A DNA stretch of 22,207 bases from a virus. Each line of letters opens with the position of its first letter. The stretch's first letter is position 1. Location of the stretch: positions 1 through 22,207 of IMG/VR virus record IMGVR_UViG_3300037317_000050. The stretch is one strand, 5' to 3'. The position numbers were made by a program, and so were the translations under genes. Shown piece after piece: positions 566-18,743 of this stretch. The notes under the pieces were generated by a model. The model made no database searches. It saw nothing but the letters and a program-made list of their open reading frames with translations, and was not told the DNA's origin.

Positions 566-1102
566 TCAGACGTTGCTTCGGACGTCACCAATACGGCGGC
601 CTGCCCGGTTGATGTGGCGCTTCAAATGTCTCTGAATCTCAGTCGCCAACGTCTTGTTCATCTGTCGGCCAGTCGGCAGGAATTGCCTGCCCGGATACGT
701 CTCACCAAACGGCCCTGTCCCGCCCTCTTGGAGCCTCGGGGCATAGGGGACGGATGTACCGATGGAGACAGACGTCGGCGTCTGTCGGAAATAGTGCCAA
801 GGATTCGTCGGGTCGGTCAGCGAGGGATACAGTCGCTCCTTTGTCCCTTTGCGCCATCTGAGGACATCGGTATGCCCAACCTTGTTGACCTTCCATCGGC
901 GATATCGCGGCTCACCGTTGTAATCCCAACTCTGGCCAACCAACGCCCCCTGCCGGTCGATGTTATTACGGGCATTTTCCAAAAAGTGCGGATGGATAAT
1001 CTCGTCGACCACGGTGGGGAACCACTGCTGCACCTCCAGACTGTCGACCACACCGAGAGCCCTATCGAAAGCGTCCCCTATCTTGATGCGTGGACGTGCC
1101 AT
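566..1102 (-). CDS. Phage virion morphogenesis / tail completion protein (Mu gpG / Phage_tail_S-like)
   Basis: This 178-residue protein is basic and has the family's typical C-terminal region, a substrate-like GxxYPGRQFLPTG stretch followed by a basic helix (LATEIQRHLKRHI). That resembles Phage_tail_S / Mu gpG-like proteins, which finish the head-tail junction. An earlier W-rich middle with RRWKVNKVGH and YAPRLQEGG also fits. The start is the ATG at 1102, which overlaps the stop of the SAP gene by one base (TGATG); a GTG one codon upstream is possible. It sits between connector-type genes and the cut-off gene at the left edge, as expected for a neck protein. Family assignment comes from motif memory, not a search. 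Confidence 0.72.
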   Translation of the reverse strand: MARPRIKIGDAFDRALGVVDSLEVQQWFPTVVDEIIHPHFLENARNNIDRQGALVGQSWDYNGEPRYRRWKVNKVGHTDVLRWRKGTKERLYPSLTDPTNPWHYFRQTPTSVSIGTSVPYAPRLQEGGTGPFGETYPGRQFLPTGRQMNKTLATEIQRHLKRHINRAGRRIGDVRSNV

Positions 1103-10029: not shown

Positions 10030-10103
10030 CGGAGCGTGGCGCAGTCTGGTAGCGCACTTGCATGGGGTGCAAGGGGTCCCGGGTTCAAATCCCGGCGCTC
10101 CGA
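10030..10103 (+). tRNA. tRNA-Pro, anticodon GGG
   Basis: A complete 74-base cloverleaf: 7-bp acceptor CGGAGCG/CGCTCCG, 4-bp D-stem GCGC/GCGC, anticodon arm CTTGC-ATGGGGT-GCAAG with GGG at the anticodon, 5-base variable loop, and T-arm CCGGG-TTCAAAT-CCCGG. The discriminator is A and no CCA is encoded. The gene reads CCC/CCT codons. It has its own terminator, and its 3' end faces the integrase gene, as is usual for tRNA-targeting integrases. No second copy of its 3' end is visible elsewhere in the window. Confidence 0.97.
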
Positions 10104-10111
10104 CTTCAAGA

Positions 10112-10217: not shown

Positions 10218-11681
10218 TTACTCTTCGGAATAGAGGTCGCCCTCCCCGGCCAGCAAGTCGTGCAACTCTCTCGGGTCCACATCGGTGTAATTCAGGTTCA
10301 CGTCCTCGGAGAGATGACCCATCAGGGCCTGACGAAGCTCCGAAGGCACGCCGAGTTGCCGTAACCGATCGTTGAAGCCATGCCGCATCATGTACGGCGT
10401 GATGTCGCGTTTCAGCCCCGCTTCCTTACTCGCGCCCTTGTAGTGCGTCCGAAGGCTATCGTCGGTGAAGTAGCCACCCTCCTCGTCCGGGAAGAGAATG
10501 TCGCAGTCACCGATGTCAGGAAATCCGTGATCGGTGCGGATCTCGAGCCACTCATCGATCGCGTCACGCGCAGGTTGCAGTACGGGAATCATCTTCCGGC
10601 CCGCGTACGCATCCGAGTGAGCCTTGCCCGTTTTCGTGTATCCGCCCTCTCCATCGACAGCCGCTCCCTCCACGCGAAGCACTCGGTTCTCCCGGTCGTA
10701 GTGCTCGAGACGAAAGTAGAAGAGCTCGGACGGTCTCAGGCCGGTGTACTTGAGTACCCGGTGCATGAAGTAGCTGGCCTTCCGCCGCGGCAGATGCTGC
10801 TTGAAACGACCGTCAGACGCCTTCTGGATGCGCTTGCGGAATCCCTCCTCGAGCTTCGCCAACTCTCGGAGACCTGGCACCTTCTGTGTTTTCGAGCGTC
10901 CTTTGATGCGCTTGGGTGACAGCCGGAGCTTCGCCGGGTCTGCCGGGTCGTCGGCTCCCATCTTCTTCGCGAACCCTCGAACGATGGACTTGAGCACCTT
11001 GAAGTACCGCACCACGGTCGACTTGGAGTACTTGGGTACGACCTCCTCGTCCTTCTTCTTGGTCTGGCGCTCCAGGTACTCCGCAAACCCATCGACGTGC
11101 TTCGGTTCGATGTCGTGGATGGTGAGCTCGGGGAGTCGGTTCGAGCTCTGCTTTCCGAAGGACTGAATCAGCGACCAGACTGCCTTCTTCTGCTGGTGGT
11201 CGGACTTCGAGTTCCGGCGCTCAATCCACGGAAGGTAGTCCTCCTCGACATACTCCCGCAGCGTGACCTTCCGGTCCTCCAGGCGTTCTTCGTCGGTCCC
11301 GTGTGCCTGCTTGAGCAGAAACTTGAAGTAGTTCTTGTCGCCATGAGCACGATTGTCCACGAGCTCCTGGAGCCTTTCGAGGAACACGCCGATGGGCGCA
11401 GTCGTGGGCTCCCGCTTCTCACCCTTGTCATACGCAAACTCGACGTAGGCTTTCCCGGACCCAACGTGAACTTCCTTCCGAAGCTCGAGCTTGTCCCGAA
11501 ACTCACGGGCCTTCTCGAGCGCGGCCTTTCTCGCCTCCTCGGAGTCGTTGTGCGGACGGAACGTCTTCGAGCGCTTCCGCTCGACTCCCTTCTGGTCCCG
11601 AACAAATTTCTGTACGCGAAAGCCCGCTGGTTTCGTCTTCGTCGCGGGCACTGGATAGATACACCGTTCGATGGCCCCCAT
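10218..11681 (-). CDS. int: Tyrosine recombinase integrase
   Basis: A 487-residue site-specific recombinase. Residues 1-90 look like an arm-binding domain. Residues ~140-245 are the SAM-like core-binding domain, with LREYVEEDYLPWIE and TVVRYFKVLKSIVRGF. The catalytic domain follows with Arg316 (TGLRPSELF), a Lys near 350-363, YMMRHG (430-435), GHLSED (His456) and the nucleophile Tyr465 (LNYTDV). The usual first His of the HxxR motif is Tyr430 here. At 487 residues it is longer than most phage integrases, mainly through a basic linker. The ATG at 11681 has GAGG upstream. The 3' end is 115 bases from the tRNA-Pro 3' end, the usual arrangement for a tRNA target. Confidence 0.95.
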   Translation of the reverse strand: MGAIERCIYPVPATKTKPAGFRVQKFVRDQKGVERKRSKTFRPHNDSEEARKAALEKAREFRDKLELRKEVHVGSGKAYVEFAYDKGEKREPTTAPIGVFLERLQELVDNRAHGDKNYFKFLLKQAHGTDEERLEDRKVTLREYVEEDYLPWIERRNSKSDHQQKKAVWSLIQSFGKQSSNRLPELTIHDIEPKHVDGFAEYLERQTKKKDEEVVPKYSKSTVVRYFKVLKSIVRGFAKKMGADDPADPAKLRLSPKRIKGRSKTQKVPGLRELAKLEEGFRKRIQKASDGRFKQHLPRRKASYFMHRVLKYTGLRPSELFYFRLEHYDRENRVLRVEGAAVDGEGGYTKTGKAHSDAYAGRKMIPVLQPARDAIDEWLEIRTDHGFPDIGDCDILFPDEEGGYFTDDSLRTHYKGASKEAGLKRDITPYMMRHGFNDRLRQLGVPSELRQALMGHLSEDVNLNYTDVDPRELHDLLAGEGDLYSEE

Positions 11682-13771: not shown

Positions 13772-14064
13772 ACTTGTCTCCAGTAGCCTGCGCAGACCTC
13801 TGCGCGCTGCTGTTGGGTTGGGTTGACGAGGCTCAATACCTCGTGAGTCGTGAGAATATCGACCGTGAGCTTCGTCTCTTCAGACTTCGCCACGTCCTTG
13901 AGAAGAGCGATGAGAGCGAACCCCCCGACATTGTCGTCGTGAAGGACGTGCTTCACTCTACGTCGCTCGTCTGGGTAGTCCTCGTAATAGAGACGGAGAA
14001 TTCTCCCCGCCTTCGTTGCGGCGGTCACTGACAATTCGCCGTTCGTGTCTGTGTTCGTAATCAT
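13690..14064 (-). CDS. Small helical protein, tandem paralogue A
   Basis: A 124-residue protein with GGAGG five bases before its ATG. AGRILRLYYEDYPDERRRVKHVL and RAEVCAGYWRQV align with the matching parts of paralogue B (13433-13771). The last ~25 residues (CTPLTLSKHSDESRD...) have no counterpart, are of low complexity, and are encoded entirely in the stretch that overlaps B. They look like read-on into the neighbour after loss of an original stop. The start overlaps the preceding HNH gene by four bases (ATGA). Function unknown. Confidence 0.72.
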   Translation of the reverse strand: MITNTDTNGELSVTAATKAGRILRLYYEDYPDERRRVKHVLHDDNVGGFALIALLKDVAKSEETKLTVDILTTHEVLSLVNPTQQQRAEVCAGYWRQVCTPLTLSKHSDESRDSTPRSTMIGWK

Positions 14065-14657
14065 TGGTTCCTCCGATGGTGGTTTTGCAGCTTCTTGAGC
14101 TTCTCGAGGATTTCATCTTGCGGCATTGGAAGGTGCTTCCATGACCGCCCCGTCACGGCAGACCAGATGGCGTGAAAACTGACCTCCTCGCCGATTCGTT
14201 TGGACACTTCGTCTGCGAGTTCAGTGCACGTGACGTCGTCACGGTAGTATCGTCGACGCAGCTCCTTCACGAGCTCCTCATTGAGTTTGCAGCCATGCGT
14301 GCCGTGGTCGATTTTATCAGCGTTGTTCTCTGCACGCGTGCCGATGTAGAGGTTTTCTGCGGAGTTGTCGTGCTTGCTGTCCTTCTTGATGTGACAGACG
14401 TCTTTGCCCTCGATGCAGCCGTCGATAAACGCCTCTCCCACCAGTCGATGGACGTTGTGAGTGGTGCCTTTCGCGTCTCTGTAGAGCACGACTACGTGAT
14501 AGCCGTTGGCTCCCGGTGAATCCTTCAAGCGGCGTGGATTCCCGCTCTTCATCGAGAAGACTTTTCCGCCTGATGTCACCCAGTAATCGCCGTCGTATCC
14601 GGGGATTGGCTTCGCCTCTTCTCCCGGCGCAAGCAGTGCTTCAAATTCGTCACTCAT
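14061..14657 (-). CDS. NUMOD4-HNH endonuclease (homing-type)
   Basis: A 198-residue protein. Residues 14-60 are a NUMOD4 DNA-binding domain (PIPGYDGDYWVTSGGKVFS). Residues ~66-108 are an HNH domain (HNVHRLVGEAFI... VCHIKKDSKHDNSAENLYIGT, with the NSAEN core). A helix-turn-helix tail follows (CTELADEVSKRIGEEVSFHAIWSAV), the layout of free-standing phage homing endonucleases. The start is the ATG at 14657 with AGGAGGA about eight bases upstream; the long open frame up to 15122 is out of frame with genes there and is rejected. It overlaps the next gene upstream by 8 bases. Phage-borne genes of this type usually nick relatives of the phage and spread themselves. Confidence 0.88.
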   Translation of the reverse strand: MSDEFEALLAPGEEAKPIPGYDGDYWVTSGGKVFSMKSGNPRRLKDSPGANGYHVVVLYRDAKGTTHNVHRLVGEAFIDGCIEGKDVCHIKKDSKHDNSAENLYIGTRAENNADKIDHGTHGCKLNEELVKELRRRYYRDDVTCTELADEVSKRIGEEVSFHAIWSAVTGRSWKHLPMPQDEILEKLKKLQNHHRRNQ

Positions 14658-14982
14658 CGTCGTCTTCCTCCTCAAAAATGGCGTCGATCTCGTCTTCGTT
14701 GAGCTGGGGGTATTGACGCCGTAAGTACCTCCGCAGCTCGTCATCTTCGTCGTGTTGATTTTCTCCGAATGCCTCTTGTTGGAGCACGTGAACCGCCCTT
14801 TGAGTGCGCTTGCCATGTCGCCAAAGCTCCACGACCTCAACGCCCCGCACGTCCCATGTGCTCTTCTGTTCCCACTCTCCTCCCTTCCGACTCCACACCG
14901 TCCCGTCTGGGCAGACCGCGTAGTCAGCGTCGTACTCTTCGAGCAGGACACAAACCCCCTCGATTTCGACCGTCTTACACAC
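14650..14982 (-). CDS. NUMOD4-like protein without a nuclease domain
   Basis: A 110-residue protein with a GTG start at 14982, AAGGGG eight bases upstream. DYAVCPDGTVWSRKGGEW and GKRTQRAVHVLQQEAFGE follow the NUMOD4 pattern (ND-GTVWS ... VHxLVxEAF) and match the following HNH gene in order. The protein stops where the HNH would begin and ends instead in a very acidic tail (EIDAIFEEEDDDE). It may bind DNA without cutting, or be a remnant. Its stop overlaps the start of the HNH gene. Confidence 0.72.
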   Translation of the reverse strand: MCKTVEIEGVCVLLEEYDADYAVCPDGTVWSRKGGEWEQKSTWDVRGVEVVELWRHGKRTQRAVHVLQQEAFGENQHDEDDELRRYLRRQYPQLNEDEIDAIFEEEDDDE

Positions 14983-16596: not shown

Positions 16597-17316
16597 CTAT
16601 TCTTCCTCTCCGAAGAGCTTTTCCAAGTAGCGATAGAGGTCTATCTCATCCGCTTCTAGCCCGACATATCTCGAGCGTTCAGGATGGTATTGTTCTCCAA
16701 AGCAAAGCACTTTGAACATCTCTTCGATTTCTTCTACCGAGCTCTGAAAGAAGTCAAGACTAAGATCTTCGGCAACCTTGAATCCCATCACAACCCCGTA
16801 AACCCCGTCCTTTCCTGCTTCAACCAGCGCCTTGTCGCTCAGATGACCGATCACGTCGTTACGGACGTCGCGAATATGGTCGAGTACGTCGTTTATCCGC
16901 TTAGAAATACGTGCATCGGCCAAGACTTTCCCCACATCCTTTCGAAGATCCTCCTTGGTTAGAGGTACGAGCTGATTCTTCCAGACTCGCAGGTTCGCGA
17001 AGTTTGGAGACCCGTTGTTGTCCTCGGTAAGACGATAGAGGCCCATAGCCACTGACTCGATCAGCATCACTAATACGTGATCGAAGAATCCTTTCTTGTC
17101 GTAGTTGTAATCGAATTCATGCATTGCTTCGAGATATCGCAACTCTTGGCGTACTCGCATAATCTGGCACCACACCGTTTCACGACGGGTCCTGTACTCC
17201 TCCAAAGGCTCGATGTCGTCTGAGGACTTCTTTGCGCGAATAACGTCTTCCGGCTTAACTGTGGTCAGATCCATCGCTCCCTCATGATCAAAAACAGTCA
17301 CGACTGACACGGACAC
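16597..17316 (-). CDS. AbiU2-like HEPN domain protein
   Basis: A 239-residue helical protein. LDHIRDVRNDVIGHLSDK carries the HEPN signature RN-x4-H (Arg152, Asn153, His158), in the style of the AbiU2 HEPN family, after a long helical pair with HVLVMLIESVAMGLYRL. The start is a GTG at 17316 with GGAG five bases upstream; an ATG at 17274 is the alternative. It has an 84-base gap on its 5' side and about 290 bases on its 3' side, so unlike its neighbours it may be transcribed on its own. AbiU2-type proteins belong to abortive infection systems; no partner is obvious here. The RNase role is inferred. Confidence 0.7.
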   Translation of the reverse strand: MSVSVVTVFDHEGAMDLTTVKPEDVIRAKKSSDDIEPLEEYRTRRETVWCQIMRVRQELRYLEAMHEFDYNYDKKGFFDHVLVMLIESVAMGLYRLTEDNNGSPNFANLRVWKNQLVPLTKEDLRKDVGKVLADARISKRINDVLDHIRDVRNDVIGHLSDKALVEAGKDGVYGVVMGFKVAEDLSLDFFQSSVEEIEEMFKVLCFGEQYHPERSRYVGLEADEIDLYRYLEKLFGEEE

Positions 17317-17400: not shown

Positions 17401-17604
17401 TCAATCCTGGTAGCCCATCAACTCCGCAATCCGCTCCTGCGCCTCCCGCTCGCCCTGTACACGGCCTGCGTAGACCGCCCCGGCGAAGACCGCGCACGAG
17501 CCTGCGACGTAGACCGCGGGCCAGACGTCGATGAGGTCGAAGGCCCATAGCCAGCTCACAGCGAGGGCGACTACCGTCGGTGCGAAGTGTCGTATCAGTC
17601 CCAT
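17401..17604 (-). CDS. Small two-helix membrane protein
   Basis: A 67-residue protein starting MGLIRHFAPTVVALAV at the ATG at 17604, which overlaps the stop of the replication gene by 10 bases. Two membrane segments are clear (about residues 8-22 and 27-44), followed by a charged helix (QGEREAQERIAELMG). The open frame upstream to 17646 is within the replication gene and is rejected. It could be a superinfection-exclusion or membrane-docking protein. A holin is possible but unlikely so far from lysis genes. Confidence 0.7.
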   Translation of the reverse strand: MGLIRHFAPTVVALAVSWLWAFDLIDVWPAVYVAGSCAVFAGAVYAGRVQGEREAQERIAELMGYQD

Positions 17605-18686
17605 CCTATCCCGCCTTCCACGGTTCCTGCGGCTGACTCGTCCCACTCATCGACATCGAGCCTCTTCTTCTTTTCGGCACTTGAAGCTGAGCGGTCAGGA
17701 AGATCACCATGCTTGGCAAAATAGGCGGGTAGCCACTTGTTCATCAGAGATGAATCGACTGTCTCCCATTTGAGCACATCGCGTATCCAGGCACCATCGC
17801 GCTGGTGACGTTTCCACACGCGACGTATCAGCATTTCCGCTTTGCGCACTCCGCCGAGCAATCGGATGGCCCTCGCGGCTCTCTCGATAGCTCCTTCGCT
17901 CTTCAGGGTATTTCGTTGAGACTGAAATGCCTCATCCGTCCATTTGTCGAGCCTCTCCTCCAGCTTGTCCAAAAGTTCACGGGGGGAAGGGGGGTTGTCT
18001 TTCGCTGGCGTCCTCTTCCCTACTTGCCCGTGGTTGCTCTTGCCTTCCACTCCGCCCTTTTCCTCCCTCGTCTTACCCGAGGTCTTTGACCGAGGGGGGA
18101 CGCCTGCTTCTCTCCGACTGGAACCCGACTCTGCGTCAACGTCGACGGAGCCGGAGGCGGAGTCTGGCGTGTTGTTGTTGGGGTCTTTGTCGGTGGTCTC
18201 TGCGGTAGTCTCTGTATCGTAGTCTCTGTAATGGGTCTGGCGCTTTCCGCCATTCTTGGATGGCGCTTTTGTACATTCTTGTTTGGCGGAATCCGCCATT
18301 CTAGTATGGCGCTTTCCGCCATTCTGGTCAGAATCGCCTGAGACGCCGTTTTTCGGGTCATCTTCGGGTTCGGCGGTGAGTTCAGCCCAAAGGGCATCGA
18401 GGTCTACCTGGAAGAAGAGTCGGCAAGGCACGCCTCGCCTATCCTCCCGCCAAAAAGAGGTCTTTCGAAGGGCTCGACGCGCTGACTCTTGCTCCCGACG
18501 GGACATTCCGGTCTCATCCTCCCACTCCTCCTGAGTCTTCCAGAACCAGCCGTCGTCGGAGGTTCGCTTTGACCAGTACACGGCCTGAGACAGCATGAGA
18601 GCAGCTGTCACTGACCCCGTGATGTCGACGAAGGAACGTTGAAAAGCAATGGGCCTATCGAGTATTGAATAGACGCGGTGAGACAT
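17595..18686 (-). CDS. Phage replication initiator (lambda O-like layout)
   Basis: A 363-residue protein starting MSHRVYSILDRPI at the ATG at 18686, behind AAGGAG seven bases upstream; codons further upstream are rejected. Residues 1-105 form a winged-helix domain (VTAALMLSQAVYW, WKTQEEWEDETGMSRREQESARRALRKT), the pattern of phage and plasmid initiators that bind iterons. A long hydrophilic, low-complexity linker (residues ~105-230) is the part that encodes the iterons. The C-terminal ~130 residues (LLDKLEERLDKWTD... IERAARAIRLLGGVRKAEMLIRRVWKR) would contact the helicase or its loader. It is the first gene of the minus-strand early operon, and its start codon lies in an operator-like sequence. 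No helicase gene is seen. Confidence 0.82.
   Translation of the reverse strand: MSHRVYSILDRPIAFQRSFVDITGSVTAALMLSQAVYWSKRTSDDGWFWKTQEEWEDETGMSRREQESARRALRKTSFWREDRRGVPCRLFFQVDLDALWAELTAEPEDDPKNGVSGDSDQNGGKRHTRMADSAKQECTKAPSKNGGKRQTHYRDYDTETTAETTDKDPNNNTPDSASGSVDVDAESGSSRREAGVPPRSKTSGKTREEKGGVEGKSNHGQVGKRTPAKDNPPSPRELLDKLEERLDKWTDEAFQSQRNTLKSEGAIERAARAIRLLGGVRKAEMLIRRVWKRHQRDGAWIRDVLKWETVDSSLMNKWLPAYFAKHGDLPDRSASSAEKKKRLDVDEWDESAAGTVEGGIGWD
18193..18230. repeat. Short tandem repeats beside the iterons
   Basis: GTAGTCTCTGTA occurs at 18205-18216 and 18219-18230, with a weaker copy GTGGTCTCTGCG at 18193-18204. They lie directly next to the iteron array and may be the melting or accessory part of the origin. 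Confidence 0.5.
18238..18325. repeat. Four 19-bp iterons at 23-bp spacing inside the initiator gene: candidate replication origin
   Basis: Units start at 18238, 18261, 18284 and 18307. Units 1 and 4 are identical: TGGCGCTTTCCGCCATTCT. Unit 3 differs in the centre and is a perfect palindrome around one base (TGGCGGA-A-TCCGCCA). Unit 2 keeps both ends but has a changed middle. Each has the half-sites TGGCG and CGCCA. Exact 23-bp spacing puts all units within about two helical turns of each other, as in lambda's origin inside gene O. This is not a CRISPR array. Confidence 0.85.
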
Positions 18687-18743
18687 CCCAGAACTCCTTG
18701 AGGTCAAGATCAAAAATGAGTATTCTGGGAGTACATCCCAGAA
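18683..18743 (-). promoter_or_regulatory. Operator-like palindrome and repeated half-site over the initiator start
   Basis: TTCTGGGA-GTACA-TCCCAGAA (18723-18743) is a perfect 8-bp inverted repeat with a 5-base spacer. The 12-mer ACATCCCAGAAC at 18733-18744 recurs exactly at 18683-18694, 50 bases away, where it covers the initiator start codon. This arrangement fits a repressor that closes the early promoter, possibly by binding both sites. The protein that binds is not identified. Confidence 0.72.

Follow-up and report, generated by a model that had tools for sequence, protein, structure and literature searches.

Iterons and a conserved 12-bp repeat mark a very probable lambda-like replication origin within a phage initiator gene

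The repeats at 18193-18325 of virus record IMGVR_UViG_3300037317_000050, analysed here over its full 22,207 bp (the window), are very probably the replication start site of the phage. We assign a probability of roughly 0.88 to the reading that this segment is a vegetative origin of lambda-like design, carried within the initiator gene, in which initiator-bound iterons lead to opening of the adjacent 12-mers. The position and order of the array match the scheme of lambda and SPP1; the origin role, initiator binding, opening and helicase loading are deduced. With this assignment an anonymous repeat becomes a testable origin.

The initiator gene and its repeats

The earlier note had described four 19-bp iterons at an exact 23-bp pitch, two of them identical and one a perfect palindrome, in the linker-coding part of a winged-helix initiator gene, with a second set of 12-bp repeats beside them, and each of these elements was recovered (Table 1). 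The iterons fill codons 121-150 at exactly that pitch; the identical pair has palindrome arms of 5 bp, whereas the palindrome of iteron 2 has 7-bp arms and a central base, and iteron 3 retains a single half-site, mixed sites of this kind being found also in relatives (for example L003 and L010). The 12-mers, two exact copies and one matching at nine of 12 positions, fill codons 153-165, and the predicted disordered linker contains all iterons and 12-mers. No tandem array in the window scores higher than the iterons, and the pattern TGGCGNNNTNCGCCATTCT, with up to three mismatches, gave seven matches, six of them inside the array, where 0.69 were expected. A 23-bp pitch does not divide into whole codons, so that the frame shifts from one iteron to the next; together they cover all three frames and specify different peptides. 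Only one in 10,000 synonymous-codon shuffles of the initiator gene reached the observed tandem score, and neither the three 5-5-5 palindromes nor two copies of TACAGAGACTAC arose in any of 10,000. As all three frames are occupied and shuffles almost never repeat in this way, we conclude that the repeats exist at the level of DNA; a chance origin was ruled out by the same frame and shuffle tests.

Table 1. Positions of the initiator gene, its domains and its repeats in the window, and of the related plasmid element
Feature	Position	Strand	Description
O-like replication initiator gene	17595..18686	-	363 aa from ATG 18686; PHROG matches
N-terminal winged-helix domain	18372..18659	-	residues ~10-105; AlphaFold2 pLDDT mostly 94-97, helices and beta wing
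Recognition helix	18465..18500	-	residues 63-74; AlphaFold2 prediction; bears R64 and S68
Predicted disordered linker, coding segment	17997..18347	-	residues ~114-229; holds the whole array
Iteron 1 (gene order)	18307-18325		TGGCGCTTTCCGCCATTCT
Iteron 2 (gene order)	18284-18302		contains perfect 15-bp palindrome TGGCGGAATCCGCCA
Iteron 3 (gene order)	18261-18279		degenerate; TGTAC replaces TGGCG in one arm
Iteron 4 (gene order)	18238-18256		identical to iteron 1
12-mer 1	18219..18230	-	TACAGAGACTAC on coding strand; conserved in relatives
12-mer 2	18205..18216	-	TACAGAGACTAC; reading frame differs from 12-mer 1
Degenerate third 12-mer	18193..18204	-	CGCAGAGACCAC; 9/12 match; tandem array 18182-18215
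PM1-like element	pBSG3 (NC_014104, L219) ~717-888		22-23-bp iterons and three 12-mers

Relative to the gene as a whole, the 12-mer region is thermodynamically weak (mean z 1.95, n = 30). The AT content of the 12-mer is no more than moderate, and in the window gene it is not the single least stable stretch. Identity of the 12-mer with the DnaA-trio was considered and dropped, as it gives no reading as 3'-[G/A]AT-5' triplets. GC skew has no clear reversal at the array.

The protein had earlier been judged not obviously O, a doubt that profile comparison removes: residues 7-306 match phrog_9773 ('replication initiation O-like', E 3.6e-39) over the N-domain and the C-terminal part, with further matches to phrog_678 and phrog_345. 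Pfam and NCBIfam searches yielded no family for it, a sequence search of solved structures no match, and a single-protein search for close relatives one locus each in the viral and genome collections. Use of an alternative upstream TTG start at 18713 would give a 372-aa initiator. AlphaFold2 confidently predicts the N-terminus as a winged helix, in keeping with the initial description; pLDDT falls below 50 in the linker (residues 114-137, 146-196 and 198-229), and the C-terminus is helical and poorly predicted. Among solved folds, the predicted winged helix comes nearest, at modest scores, to the N-domains of plasmid Rep/initiator proteins and to further winged helices.

The record is probably a fragment. 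No helicase or loader gene was recognised in these 22 kb, although most relatives do have one, and the genes that follow the initiator in this fragment (17404-17646 and 16600-17316) gave no loader match. The latter, in the early region, matches HEPN_AbiU2 (E 2.2e-6), an abortive-infection-type domain. Elsewhere in the window, a NUMOD4/HNH homing-endonuclease-like gene (14064-14720) lies between the packaging and replication genes, and a tRNA-Pro gene (10030-10104) adjoins a tyrosine integrase gene (10218-11681), which makes this a likely attachment site.

Conservation and spread of iterons and 12-mers

Relatives were sought by alignment of the winged-helix domain alone, with the linker disregarded, which returned 434 viral contigs; 80 of these were taken and reduced to 34 non-redundant genes, and the window gene and 12 others, mostly from named phages of Synechococcus, Vibrio, Pseudomonas, Acinetobacter, Escherichia, Salmonella and Burkholderia, brought the set to 47. 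With p-values computed gene by gene and uncorrected for shared ancestry, a linker iteron array reached p<=0.01 against synonymous shuffles in 38 of the 47 (34 at 23 bp, three at 22 and one at 24), and AGAGA[CT]TAC, present in 39 and in at least two copies in 33, did so in 32. This motif stands 3' of the iterons in nearly all cases. Glutamate codons within the 12-mer peptide are GAG in 80 cases and GAA in four, compared with 432 and 349 elsewhere in the same genes. Relatives that keep the protein and lose the repeats by synonymous change had been named in the earlier note as a refutation; the check did not refute the reading, since both the array and the 12-mers are retained to a much greater extent than synonymous change would lead one to expect. 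Five relatives (L134, L135, L143, L193 and L196) carry an HNH-endonuclease-like domain inserted in the linker between winged helix and iterons; L134, L135, L143 and L196 also differ in iteron class.

Iteron arms were compared across the 47 genes in three classes: TGGCG, TGCGG-like and GTCTAC-like. Among 103 alignment columns, residues 64 and 68, separated by a single turn of the predicted recognition helix, rank as the top two in mutual information with iteron class. Of 17 genes with arginine at 64 and threonine or serine at 68, 16 have TGGCG arms; of 28 genes without R64, none has them. Iteron class switches repeatedly along the tree, and two or more of the switches fall on branches with good support, but support is weak in places and the covariation is in part shared ancestry. 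This covariation of iteron and helix suggests a readable specificity code, and the initiator probably reads the iterons.

A DNA-only scan of viral contigs, in which two close copies of AGAGAYTAC were required, found at least 119 viral stretches, nearly all of them initiator genes. Among the matches listed, the motif runs in sense inside an ORF in 117, in most cases within residues 125-200 of a protein 250-370 aa long; a small number of these ORFs (for example L066, L100 and L115) resemble chance matches in Thr/Glu-rich proteins. At least 49 of the 63 proteins scanned from these listed matches hit replication PHROGs, and in the winged helix the Y-W pair shows conservation of 90% or more. In the 74 non-redundant genes among the listed matches, 59 have a tandem array of 21-24 bp just upstream (37 at 23 bp, 15 at 22 bp), with iterons wholly different in sequence. 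The 12-mer is thus conserved far more than the iterons, and its pitch is flexible (9-14 bp, mostly 12) whereas theirs is rigid, which would fit recognition of separate sites rather than of a single rigid duplex filament. Nearly letter for letter, the 12-mer is common to a huge range of phages, Gram-negative, Gram-positive and cyanobacterial, and seems not to have been described before: we found no account of it as an origin element in the open literature, where the few papers matching by sequence bore titles on apparently unrelated subjects, older subscription papers being outside the scope of that search. Matches to the 12-mer repeat are also found in 2,358 of 5,426 complete E. coli genomes, and those examined lay inside prophage initiator genes beside dicA/dicC/ydaT-like genes, often annotated as hypothetical. 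As a DNA signature, the 12-mer locates origins together with their initiators in a very large number of phages and prophages, including many annotated as hypothetical only, and its constancy beside ever-changing iterons offers a direct handle on DNA melting by phage initiators.

The 12-mer tracks the type of N-terminal domain and not host, loader or C-terminal domain, as judged from domain-swap pairs and control sets. Staphylococcus phage 37, with a YW-type winged helix, has the 12-mers, and 80alpha, which matches it in host, in C-terminal family (Phg_2220_C) and in its DnaC-like loader, lacks them. Likewise, phiMR11 and TP901-1 have the DnaB_2 domain in common, but of these two phages phiMR11 alone has the 12-mer, and the E. 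coli phrog_391 'protein O' presents the same contrast with lambda. The 12-mer was found in 0 of 80 lambda-O genes (11 non-redundant) and 0 of 80 80alpha-type genes (six non-redundant); both types have a second repeat of their own or an A-rich stretch in its place.

Six near-identical Bacillus rolling-circle plasmids carry, upstream of rep, ~180 bp resembling the linker of the initiator gene of Bacillus phage PM1. The copy on pBSG3 was examined, and the remaining five plasmids (NC_022531, NZ_CP009680, NZ_CP090151, NZ_CP117183 and NZ_CP117198) are identical over the element; a shortened copy is found in CP079835 (L225). In the plasmid element the frame is broken and neither initiator domain is present, but the iterons and 12-mers are intact, which shows that the array has been retained here as a unit of DNA independent of coding. 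No phage source of the exact pBSG3 iterons was found in the viral contigs. The element is a putative naked phage origin, possibly acting as a decoy or as a hitchhiking, phage-driven origin, and the Bacillus copies suggest that plasmids use captured origins to exploit or block phage replication; lambda is reportedly arrested by ectopic lambda origins (PMC4488673). In addition, a CRISPR spacer with TATACAGAGATTACTACAGAGAT lies at ~2490-2525 of pAQ4 of Picosynechococcus PCC 7002 (NC_010478, L221), beside type I-D cas genes, and from its sequence appears to target the 12-mer origin element of a cyanophage.

Proposed mechanism and competing explanations

In the putative mechanism for origin firing, initiator dimers would bind the palindromic iterons through the recognition helix of the winged helix, and dimers spaced at the 23-bp pitch would stack into one nucleoprotein complex. 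This complex would open the adjacent weak 12-mers, which are placed like the AT-rich unwinding region of lambda, one exposed strand would then be captured, and the C-terminal domain together with a loader would recruit the helicase. We further propose, tentatively and at slightly less than even odds, that AGAGA[CT]TAC is an undescribed, near-universal origin-opening signature of YW-type winged-helix initiators, read by the N-domain on opened DNA as DnaA reads DnaA-trios, that the iterons are a fast-evolving code read by residues 64 and 68, and that plasmids and CRISPR systems have captured or targeted the signature.

The iterons might alternatively form an autoregulatory operator that limits initiator synthesis, the origin lying elsewhere. 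Plasmid initiators often autoregulate, and the helix covariation speaks to whether the protein reads the repeats, which it probably does, and not to the purpose; however, the array lies ~360 bp inside the gene, away from the promoter, the weak 12-mer region almost always comes after it, as in the lambda origin, and plasmids bear it without the initiator gene, so that we consider an operator improbable. Scarcely credible is the suggestion that selection at the protein level, for a repetitive peptide in the linker, produced the repeats as a side effect. The 12-mer is indeed read as T-E-T/I-T, in one frame, in most relatives, but the iterons fall in all three frames, and in the window, L004, L008 and L162 the 12-mers are not confined to a single frame. 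The synonymous shuffles, the GAG codon bias and the frame-broken plasmid copies likewise argue against selection on the peptide, and no relatives were seen in which the peptide persists with its codons randomised.

Other explanations concern the 12-mer itself. It is conceivable, though unlikely, that the 12-mers are a binding or priming site for another factor (a host protein, helicase loader or primase) and not an opening element: their bottom strand repeats CTG, a known start triplet of E. coli primase, and their far stronger conservation compared with the iterons also speaks for such a role. Against this, the 12-mer segregates with N-terminal domain type both between phage 37 and 80alpha and between phiMR11 and TP901-1, and it recurs across phages of Gram-negative, Gram-positive and cyanobacterial hosts. 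We regard as very improbable that the 12-mer owes its retention chiefly to recombination, as a joint for swaps of C-terminal domains between phages. It does sit where winged helix and iterons meet quite different C-terminal domains, but such a joint should occur in lambda-O and 80alpha-type initiators too, where none was found (0/80 each), and its low stability and its persistence on plasmids would be left unexplained.

Comparison with known origins

At the lambda origin, O binds to iterons inside its own gene, the AT-rich region next to them opens, and the single strand of this region is bound by O proteins (PMC7466680). The earlier note had likened the layout in the window to that of lambda, and the annotated lambda iterons and AT-rich stretch do hold the same place in gene O. 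Like the window, ori-lambda (O: phrog_277, PF04492) has four iterons, near-palindromic and 18-19 bp long, spaced at ~20-24 bp where the gene encodes the linker. On their 3' side lambda has its unwinding region; the window has at this place the 12-mer region, which is weaker than the gene mean and not strongly AT-rich. Both proteins also share the distant PHROGs 9773, 678 and 345. The iterons, however, are unrelated, lambda has an A-rich stretch where the window has AGAGAYTAC repeats, and a P-like gene was not recognised in the window fragment. PF04492 does not match the window initiator even at E 10 (lambda O itself, 5.7e-36), and a profile comparison of the two proteins was insignificant. On sequence criteria, the window initiator is not a lambda O orthologue.

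Among Gram-positive systems, SPP1 gp38/oriL is alike by its published description, with direct repeats and an AT-rich unwinding element inside the initiator gene, as shown biochemically (PMC6316719). The initiator genes of 80alpha (gp20, origin annotated) and of the lactococcal phages TP901-1 and Tuc2009 (Rep) likewise contain repeats and a second, T- or A-rich repeat, but they differ in having an HTH_36-type or other N-domain and other second repeats, without AGAGAYTAC. The best Foldseek matches of the predicted winged helix (E ~0.01, VIA Z 8-9) are to the N-domain of RepA from staphylococcal multiresistance plasmids (PDB 4pql, 4pt7 and 5kbj), a likeness of fold only, at ~8-13% identity, and many winged helices score alike. 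RepA of these plasmids has its origin within rep.

Also close to the window are the phrog_9773, phrog_1347 and phrog_6493 initiators, for example those of phages Vibrio X29, Pseudomonas CF63a, Acinetobacter TRS1 and Synechococcus Ssp-JY37, in whose records at most an O-like protein is annotated and no annotated origin was found. These share a homologous N-terminal domain and 22-23-bp linker iterons with AGAGAYTAC-type repeats beside them, and vary in iteron arms, C-terminal domain and the downstream loader or helicase gene. An intragenic iteron origin is a known layout; the constant AGAGAYTAC element is the part of wider interest.
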